This document shows positions 4 through 53,446 of a DNA stretch of 64,000 bases, piece by piece (positions within the stretch are counted from its first letter, which is position 1; each line of letters begins with the position of its first letter). The notes beneath the pieces were generated by a model. That model was not told the DNA's origin. It saw only the letters and a program-made list of their open reading frames with translations, and did no database searches. Position numbers and translations under genes: made by a program. Source of the DNA: Moraxellaceae bacterium (lineage in GTDB: Bacteria > Pseudomonadota > Gammaproteobacteria > Pseudomonadales > Moraxellaceae); the NCBI GenBank assembly GCA_020697295.1, contig JAJFBF010000008.1, positions 1 through 64,000 on the forward strand. The letters run 5' to 3'.

Positions 4-255
4 ATGGCCAGCCATCGACAGCCGCCGCAAGAGCAGGCCCGCACTACCAGCCGGGCCGCGCAAGCCACCAATCACACGCACAAGAACCAGCAGGACTTCA
101 GCCGCCGCGACGTCAAGCGCGGCACCCAGCGCAGCGAGACGCAGACCGAAGGCGGGCAACGCCGAGATGATGCCGGCAACCTGGCGCCCGACCCCGCGCG
201 CCCGGAACAGGAGCACGGCGACGACAAGCGTCCCTACAAGCGCGCCGGCCGCTGA
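4..255 (+). CDS. Small hydrophilic hypothetical protein
   Basis: An 83-residue open frame starts three bases into the window, so the true start could lie outside it. The product is extremely polar (rich in Arg, Gln, Asp, His and Thr) and has no hydrophobic segment, so it would be a soluble, possibly disordered protein. Most codons end in G or C, as in the real genes here, which favours this strand. The opposite strand is also open and hydrophobic, but that is expected from the complement of polar codons, and it has no ATG start. I recognise no family. Confidence 0.4.
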   Translation: MASHRQPPQEQARTTSRAAQATNHTHKNQQDFSRRDVKRGTQRSETQTEGGQRRDDAGNLAPDPARPEQEHGDDKRPYKRAGR

Positions 256-567: not shown

Positions 568-629
568 TGAACAGTCGCGCTGATTTTTTTGAACACAAAT
601 CATCTGTTCAAAAACGAATCAGTTGTTCA
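568..629. promoter_or_regulatory. TGAACA/TGTTCA operator cluster upstream of minC
   Basis: TTTTTGAACA (586-595) and TGTTCAAAAA (605-614) form a perfect 10-bp inverted repeat with a 9-base spacer. One more TGAACA lies upstream (568-573) and one more TGTTCA downstream (624-629), giving four half-sites in 62 bp. The cluster ends about 64 bp before the minC start, where a promoter would be. The layout resembles a dimeric repressor or activator site. The cognate protein is not identifiable from the window. Confidence 0.55.
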
Positions 630-692
630 TGCCTTTCTTGCACCAGCGCGCCGCGCCAGCTATAAAGCCGGCCTTTCGCCTCCGGGGTACCG

Positions 693-1547
693 ATGAAGCA
701 GTACGAACTCCCCGTCAGCCCGACGGTATTCCGCCTCAAGGGCAGCACGCTGGCCGCCACCGTGCTGGAGCTGTCCGCGGTGCAGCCGGAGGCGCTCGCG
801 CGCCAGCTCGCGCAGAAGGTGGAACAGGCGCCGCAACTGCTGCGTCACTCGCCACTGATCATCACGCTCGACAAGCTGGCCGAGGCCGATGGCCCGCTGG
901 ACCTGGCCGACTTGCTCGCGACCTGCCGCCGCCTCGACCTGCAACCAGTGGCGGTGCGCGCATTGCGTGCCGATGACATCTCCCAGGCGGCGCGCCTGGG
1001 GCTCGCCTGCCTCCCGGCCTTGCGGGGCCGCGAGCGCGCGCTGCAGTCGGTGGAGGCGGACGCAGGGGAGGCGGCAGCCAATACGCCTGCGGCGGCGGCC
1101 CGCGACACATGCGACATCACGTCCGGCGATGCCCGGGAAGGTACTGCCAGCATGACTGCCGATGCCGCCATGAGCACCGGCAGGGCCGCCACGGTGCCCG
1201 AGACAGCAACCGTGCCTGCCCGCGTCACGCGCGTCATCACGCAACCGGTCCGCGGTGGCCAGCAGATCCATGTGGCCGGCGACCTCATCCTCCTCGCCCC
1301 GGTCAGCGCCGGCGCCGAGGTCATGGCCGACGGCCACATCCATGTCTACGCGCCCTTGCGTGGCCGCGCCCTGGCCGGCGTGCAGGGCGACACCGGCGCG
1401 CGCATCTTCTGCCGTGAACTGAACGCCGAGCTCGTCGCCATCGCCGGCCACTACCGCGTCGCCGACGACCTCAAGGCCGACGCCCTGTGGGGCCACAGCG
1501 CCCAGCTTTTCCTGCACGACGATGCCCTCCGGCTCGTCGCGCTCTGA
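693..1547 (+). CDS. minC: Septum site-determining protein MinC
   Basis: MinC is the FtsZ antagonist of the Min system, which blocks Z-ring assembly away from midcell after recruitment by MinD. The 284-residue product has the two-domain form: an N-terminal FtsZ-inhibiting domain (about 1-105), a long Ala/Thr-rich linker (about 110-180) and a C-terminal beta-helix domain (about 185-284) with the RGGQQI and GDLILLAPVS segments used for dimerisation and MinD binding. It is the first gene of minCDE, 33 bp before minD. The linker is longer than in E. coli MinC (231 residues). The family call is very secure from sequence and context. Confidence 0.96.
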   Translation: MKQYELPVSPTVFRLKGSTLAATVLELSAVQPEALARQLAQKVEQAPQLLRHSPLIITLDKLAEADGPLDLADLLATCRRLDLQPVAVRALRADDISQAARLGLACLPALRGRERALQSVEADAGEAAANTPAAAARDTCDITSGDAREGTASMTADAAMSTGRAATVPETATVPARVTRVITQPVRGGQQIHVAGDLILLAPVSAGAEVMADGHIHVYAPLRGRALAGVQGDTGARIFCRELNAELVAIAGHYRVADDLKADALWGHSAQLFLHDDALRLVAL

Positions 1548-1580: not shown

Positions 1581-2390
1581 GTGGCAAAAATCATCGTCAT
1601 CACTTCCGGCAAGGGCGGGGTCGGCAAGACCACCTCGTCCGCGGCCATCGGCACCGGCCTCGCCCAGCGCGGCCACAAGGTCGTGCTCATCGACTTCGAC
1701 GTCGGCCTGCGCAATCTCGACCTCATCATGGGCTGCGAGCGACGCGTCGTGTATGACTTCATCAACGTCATCAACGGCGAGGCCAGCCTCAACCAGGCGC
1801 TGATCAAGGACAAGCGCATCGAGAACCTTTGCGTGCTGGCCGCCAGCCAGACCCGCGACAAGGACGCCCTCACCCAGGACGGCGTCGAGCGCGTGCTCAA
1901 CGAACTCGCGCAGCAATTCGACTTCATTCTCTGTGATTCCCCCGCCGGCATCGAGAAAGGCGCCCACCTGGCCATGTACTTCGCCGACGAGGCCGTGGTC
2001 GTGACCAATCCGGAGGTGTCCTCCGTGCGCGACTCCGACCGCATGCTGGGCCTGCTCTCGGCCAAGTCGCGGCGCGCCGAACAGAACCTGGAGCCGGTGA
2101 AGGAGCACCTGCTGCTGACCCGCTACAATCCGGAGCGGGTGGAAAAGGGCGAGATGCTGTCGGTGGAGGACGTGAAGGACATCCTCTCGATCAAGCTGCT
2201 GGGCGTGATCCCGGAATCCCAGGCCGTGCTCAAGGCCTCGAACTCGGGCGTGCCCGTCATCCTCGACGCCGAGTCCGATGCCGGCCAGGCCTATGCCGAC
2301 GCCGTCGAGCGCCTGCTCGGCAACGACCTCGCCCACCGCTTCCTGGAAGTGCAGAAGAAAGGCTTCCTGAATCGCCTGTTCGGAGCCTGA
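1581..2390 (+). CDS. minD: Septum site-determining ATPase MinD
   Basis: MinD is a membrane-cycling ParA-type ATPase that carries MinC to the membrane and is released by MinE. The 269-residue protein has the deviant Walker A motif KGGVGKT at 11-17 and a C-terminal amphipathic membrane-targeting helix ending in [11 protein letters not shown]. It starts with GTG, preceded by AGGA; this start places the Walker motif at its usual position. It lies between minC and minE, with one base separating it from minE, which indicates translational coupling. Confidence 0.97.
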
Positions 2391-2391
2391 C

Positions 2392-2646
2392 ATGAACCTG
2401 TTTGAATTTTTCCGCGACCGGAAGCAGCAGAGCAGCGCCTCGACCGCGCGCGAGCGCCTGCAGATCATCGTTGCCCACGAACGCAACCAGCGTGGCCAGC
2501 CCGACTATCTGCCGCAGTTGCAGCGCGAGCTGGTGGAGGTGATCCGCAAATACGTGGCCATCCAGGACGACCAGGTGCAGGTGGCGCTCGAAAGCCAGGG
2601 CAACTGCTCCATCCTCGAGCTCAACATCACGCTGCCGGAGCGCTAG
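2392..2646 (+). CDS. minE: Cell division topological specificity factor MinE
   Basis: MinE stimulates MinD ATPase and drives pole-to-pole oscillation. The 84-residue product matches the usual length. It begins with the membrane-targeting and MinD-binding segment MNLFEFF, followed by the anti-MinCD region (about 10-32, ending near [10 protein letters not shown]) and the dimerising topological-specificity domain. Its ATG follows the minD stop after one base. A strong terminator follows, so minCDE forms a closed operon. Confidence 0.96.
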
Positions 2647-53380: not shown

Positions 53381-53397
53381 ATCCCTCTCCGATAAAT

Positions 53398-53413
53398 GTG
53401 AACATCCGTTCAC
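53398..53413. promoter_or_regulatory. GTGAAC-ATCC-GTTCAC operator at the WS/DGAT start
   Basis: A perfect 6-bp inverted repeat with a 4-base spacer, 18 bp before the WS/DGAT ATG. It resembles the half-site geometry of the DesT-type TetR regulator, whose known site begins AGTGAAC with a 4-base spacer. No TetR gene is adjacent. Confidence 0.55.
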
Positions 53414-53446
53414 TGTCGGAGGCAACTCTAGGGCATGCCCGCCAAA

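Follow-up and report, generated by a model that had tools for sequence, protein, structure and literature searches.

Division-site placement is usually thought to be under the control of protein dynamics, and the DNA upstream of minCDE in this Moraxellaceae genome raises the question of whether a regulatory protein acts there as well. Directly in front of these genes lies an imperfect palindrome of 62 bp, and its likeliest reading, to which we assign a probability of roughly 0.45 from sequence analysis, is that of a species-specific regulatory protein-binding site. If a regulator does bind, the placement of the division site would be under species-specific transcriptional control. The analysed stretch (64 kb in length, referred to as the window) starts at the beginning of its contig in a 3.7-Mb genome, the nearest relatives of which are MAGs labelled Moraxellaceae bacterium. 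Between a small open reading frame at 4-255 on the plus strand, which matches no known family, and the genes minC, minD and minE lie 437 bp of intergenic DNA, and the genes and promoter elements are as follows (G003 and G004 are the two congeners that possess minCDE):

638-643, plus strand: predicted -35 box TTGCAC of the minC promoter (TTGC.. at equal 17-bp spacing in G004, TTGCGC, and G003, TTGCGT)
661-666, plus strand: predicted -10 box TATAAA (TATAAA in G004, TATAAG in G003)
693-1547, plus strand: minC (Pfam MinC_N and MinC_C)
1581-2390, plus strand: minD (CbiA/ParA-type P-loop ATPase models; 91% identity to MinD of G004)
2392-2646, plus strand: minE (Pfam MinE)

The intergenic DNA is GC-rich until about position 420 and then AT-rich, with 28-42% GC until about 600. 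A 150-bp segment drops below 40% GC at only two sites in the 64 kb, of which this block at about 421-600 is one, compared with 67% GC overall. The palindrome has the following parts:

568-629, no strand assigned: whole imperfect palindrome, 62 bp, centre about 600
568-573, plus strand: outer left half-site TGAACA
580-585, plus strand: CTGATT, middle segment of the left arm, mirror of 617-622
586-595, plus strand: inner left arm TTTTTGAACA, which includes the half-site TGAACA at 590-595
605-614, minus strand: inner right arm TGTTCAAAAA (minus strand TTTTTGAACA), which includes TGTTCA at 605-610
617-622, minus strand: AATCAG, middle segment of the right arm
624-629, minus strand: outer right half-site TGTTCA

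The original prediction had described four half-sites and a perfect 10-bp inverted repeat within 568-629. All of these were found where they had been described, the half-sites at 568-573, 590-595, 605-610 and 624-629 and the repeat, with a 9-bp spacer, formed by TTTTTGAACA at 586-595 and TGTTCAAAAA at 605-614; the description was correct but understated, as it had overlooked the symmetric pair CTGATT (580-585) and AATCAG (617-622). Because this pair bridges the inner and the outer half-sites, all 62 bp form a single gapped palindrome with the layout TGAACA-n-CTGATT-TTTTTGAACA-N9-TGTTCAAAAA-CG-AATCAG-T-TGTTCA. The left arm reads TGAACA-GTCGCG-CTGATT-TTTTTGAACA and the right arm, on the minus strand, TGAACA-A-CTGATT-CG-TTTTTGAACA. 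The distance from the outer to the inner half-site is thus 22 bp on the left and 19 bp on the right, about two helical turns on each side.

The claim that a non-random palindrome lies directly upstream of minCDE is borne out by its gapped-palindrome score of 26, the highest in the upstream region of minC, which was reached by none of 300 shuffles of positions 421-692 and, in a separate test, by none of 200 shuffles of the local sequence. In a simpler test by self-alignment the contrast was weaker, 2 of 500 shuffles reaching the observed value, and the highest-scoring of the other Moraxellaceae minC upstream regions tested came to 25. In the whole 64 kb, eight places score at least 26, compared with 1.2 expected from block shuffles, and of the seven besides the palindrome several are rich in GC and resemble terminators. 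In a plain scan for structure (66-nt windows on a 15-nt grid) the palindrome does not rank with the top places of the 64 kb, and the claim of non-randomness therefore rests on the palindrome score given the local composition.

Folded as a single strand, positions 568-629 yield an RNA structure of -19.8 kcal/mol (z -3.6) and a DNA structure with a z of -4.0, and this good fold is what speaks for an RNA element, namely a hairpin that would terminate or attenuate transcription coming from upstream. Such an element is nevertheless very unlikely, given that a U-run is missing after the 3' arm on both strands while an A-run lies inside the 3' arm, that no Rfam match was obtained and a terminator scan did not report 568-629, that the minC promoter starts downstream of the palindrome, and that the fold of the minus strand stands out less from its shuffles (z -2.8). 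An intrinsic terminator, with a GC-rich stem and a U-run, was rejected for the specific reasons that the stem is AT-rich, the A and T runs have the wrong polarity and no T-run follows either arm.

The predicted sigma-70 promoter TTGCAC-N17-TATAAA at 638-666 stands shortly before the start codon of minC, and in an alignment the form TTGCnn-N17-TATAA(A/G) is kept upstream of minC in all three members of the genus that have the gene (the window, G003 and G004). With the transcription start of minCDE taken as near 673, also a prediction, the palindrome spans about -103 to -44, with half-site centres at about -102, -80, -66 and -47 and the dyad centre at -73. It ends 8 bp before the -35 box and covers neither promoter box, so that the term "operator" in the sense of a repressor site, used in the original prediction, is not supported. 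A repressor might still act from a distance, through looping of the DNA or by obstructing an activator upstream; several half-sites in one palindrome are what one expects of a repressor operator, and the site is unique, but the -35 and -10 boxes are left free and a second, distant operator was not found in the genome, which makes this reading unlikely.

As the palindrome lies wholly upstream of intact, conserved -35 and -10 boxes and in an AT-rich block, activation or modulation is likelier than a block of RNA polymerase. We infer protein binding, an arrangement in dimers and the direction of regulation from this layout: two dimers of a predicted helix-turn-helix regulator would bind cooperatively, occupying the inner pair and the outer half-sites, and the bound palindrome would raise or modulate minCDE transcription, either through activation of the class-I type or in concert with an AT-rich upstream promoter element. 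A LysR-type T-N11-A dyad would be placed near -65, in comparison with -73 for the dyad centre of the palindrome, and T-N11-A turns up too often in AT-rich DNA to carry weight. No regulator gene adjoins the palindrome upstream, where the contig ends after 567 bp; the neighbour of minE, a convergent AraC-family gene, is a possible candidate regulator by proximity only.

The original prediction had been made to depend on conservation upstream of minC in relatives, and here the evidence goes against it at the genus level. TGAACA/TGTTCA is absent within 250 bp upstream of minC in both G004, despite 91% identity of the MinD proteins, and G003, and the N9 palindrome is absent at all 27 other loci of the family with a readable minC start; one locus (L014) has a chance-like pair of half-sites with N14 spacing, the right half of which is close to the minC start. 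The palindrome thus looks like a local feature rather than a general one. A small open reading frame similar at the DNA level lies upstream of minC in both the window (4-255) and G004 (L069, 1813-2151). It should also be noted that neither minC nor minD was found in six of the nine genomes of the genus (G001, G002 and G005-G008), one of which is estimated to be about 99% complete; the Min system has apparently been lost within the genus, where the min operon is patchy.

The lack of the palindrome in the congeners favours the main rival explanation, namely a non-functional quasi-palindrome: an AT-rich stretch, promoter-proximal or left by gene loss, would have become symmetric through template-switch mutation, and only the promoter would matter. 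The different gene order at this very junction (tfoX between the small open reading frame and minC in G004, AT-rich DNA in the window) and the indels between the two arms, as quasi-palindromes have them, point in the same direction. Set against this explanation are the facts that the strongest local palindrome adjoins a conserved promoter, that its design is nested on two levels, and that 0 of 300 local shuffles matched it. However, local shuffles are the wrong null for a sequence that arose by template switching, so that the last of these facts is not decisive, and we regard the quasi-palindrome as a serious, if somewhat doubtful, explanation. Origin from a mobile element, a plasmid or a phage was rejected, as similar DNA was absent from the genus and from the plasmids and phages searched.

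A genome search for TGAACA-N9-TGTTCA, proposed together with the original prediction, found the exact core to be unique, and even with the spacing left free between 4 and 16 bp only one occurrence of TGAACA-N-TGTTCA exists in the 3.7-Mb genome. Two congeners also contain the exact core, one copy each, at what seems to be an orthologous position, and a lone exact match is therefore not striking in itself. With one mismatch, 12 further sites were found; codon-position GC places 11 of them in coding DNA, and the twelfth lies upstream of mraZ. With two mismatches there are 174 matches, too many to be informative, and their excess over the reversed control is probably due to codon usage.

mraZ opens the division cluster, and the near-match TGAACAGTATACTACTGCTCA lies 193 bp ahead of it. 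A division regulon common to minC and mraZ was rejected, as the congeners mostly keep the half TTTTGA(A/G)CAGTAGT without a second arm; with this as the sole other non-coding one-mismatch site, and one lacking a conserved palindrome, a genome-wide regulon is not supported. Of the 10 occurrences of TTTTGARCAG in the genome most are coding, and the two that are clearly AT-rich and non-coding are those of minC and mraZ, a coincidence that was picked after the fact and is suggestive only. The element TATTTTGA(A/G)CAGTAGT is conserved genus-wide upstream of the mraZ promoter (L159-L166), and MraZ-box-like TGGNN repeats precede the gene.

Taken together, the reading as a protein-binding site draws on the score of 26, with 0 of 300 and 0 of 200 shuffles, the conserved promoter, the unique core and the half-site spacing of two helical turns. 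Against it stand the lack of conservation, of an adjoining upstream regulator gene and of a regulon, as well as the 3-bp difference between the arm spacings of 22 and 19, which strict cooperative binding would disfavour. Independent support that min promoters of this family can carry palindromes comes from the Acinetobacter type: 24 of 29 genomes of genus g15, which by sequence and context is taken as Acinetobacter, carry about 65-115 bp upstream of minC a palindrome of 29 bp of the type GCTAGAGAATT-N5-AATTTGTTCTAGC, with a fixed CTAG-N19-CTAG (L026-L033 but not L034, and most of L119-L137). In one species the outer pair is C..G instead of G..C. It is the sole copy in five of the six genomes scanned, the sixth having one more match with three mismatches. 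As its generic palindrome score lacks significance when genomes are taken singly, the evidence for it is its conservation.

The Acinetobacter palindrome resembles that of the window in its distance from minC, in being mostly single-copy and in containing TGTTC, whereas its arms are GCTAG, its half-sites are spaced differently and it is conserved across the genus. It might be speculated that the min operons of Moraxellaceae answer to regulators of their own which bind palindromes and evolve rapidly from one lineage to the next, and that GCTAG-N19-CTAGC, present in most Acinetobacter species sampled, and the TGAACA palindrome are divergent versions of one min-specific site, possibly connected with the promoter of dcw (mraZ) through the TTTTGA(A/G)CAG half, though we consider this quite unlikely.

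Among known regulatory sites, those of the SOS type, bound by LexA or by UmuDAb of Acinetobacter, would tie division to DNA damage. Acinetobacter is not known to have LexA. The genome studied here encodes a genuine LexA (NCBIfam lexA; L100, 1231-1872, plus strand) with a CTGT-N8-ACAG box, CTGTACACCCGGACAG, upstream of it. A LexA box at 568-629 was rejected, as the type present at the organism's own lexA does not occur there. The TTGA/TCAA arms of the 21-bp UmuDAb operator, TTGA-N13-TCAA with a GTnAC core (PMC11332147), enclose a spacer and loosely resemble TTGAACA/TGTTCAA, but TTGA (589-592) and TCAA (608-611) are separated by N15, the GTnAC core is missing and the genome has LexA, so that an SOS-type site is disfavoured and highly improbable.

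The occurrence of TGAAC/GTTCA at the start of the wax ester synthase/DGAT (WS/DGAT) gene had been noted in the original prediction; this motif is real (TGAACATCCGTTCA at 53399-53412), but the N4 spacing and the GTGAAC flanks separate it from the minC palindrome. GTGAAC-N4-GTTCAC, a perfect 16-bp palindrome (53397-53414), is situated just upstream of the minus-strand gene and reads, on the gene's strand, AGTGAACGGATGTTCACA, directly upstream of the ribosome-binding site. Further copies (L095 and L096, about 1499-1516 in each) separate a TetR gene that is FabR-like (FabR is its best NCBIfam match, below cut-off) from a ferredoxin-reductase gene and precede one other gene; TGAAC-N4-GTTCA occurs five times in the genome and not at all in the reversed control. 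From the gene context and the known DesT site, we take the motif to be of the FabR/DesT type, which suggests that a fatty-acid regulator of this type controls storage-lipid synthesis. FabR/DesT operators of the TetR family share the TGAAC/GTTCA half-sites with the minC palindrome and differ in having N4 and a GTGAAC flank instead of N9 and TTGAACA; with the N4 sites of the genome located elsewhere, a FabR/DesT operator at minC was rejected, and the two motifs, judged by their sequences, are different classes of site.

The view that min operons are not usually described as tightly regulated, expressed in the original prediction, holds only in part: Reg-Seq found no binding site at E. coli minC (PMC7567609), whereas minCDE of Proteus mirabilis is activated by RcsB and minD of Neisseria is affected by OxyR (both cited in PMC5908139). 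DepR binds upstream of the Chromobacterium min operon without a clear effect on the operon (PMC5908139). A regulated min operon is thus uncommon, but not unheard of. The motifs of these regulators, N3-GA-N5-C-N3 for the RcsB box and T-N11-A for the OxyR type, are unlike the palindrome, and in place of an oxyR-like gene after minE the neighbour here is the convergent AraC-family gene. What the min regions of Proteus mirabilis (RcsB) and Neisseria/Chromobacterium (OxyR/DepR) have in common with the window is a regulator-binding region directly upstream of minC, which in the present case is a predicted one.
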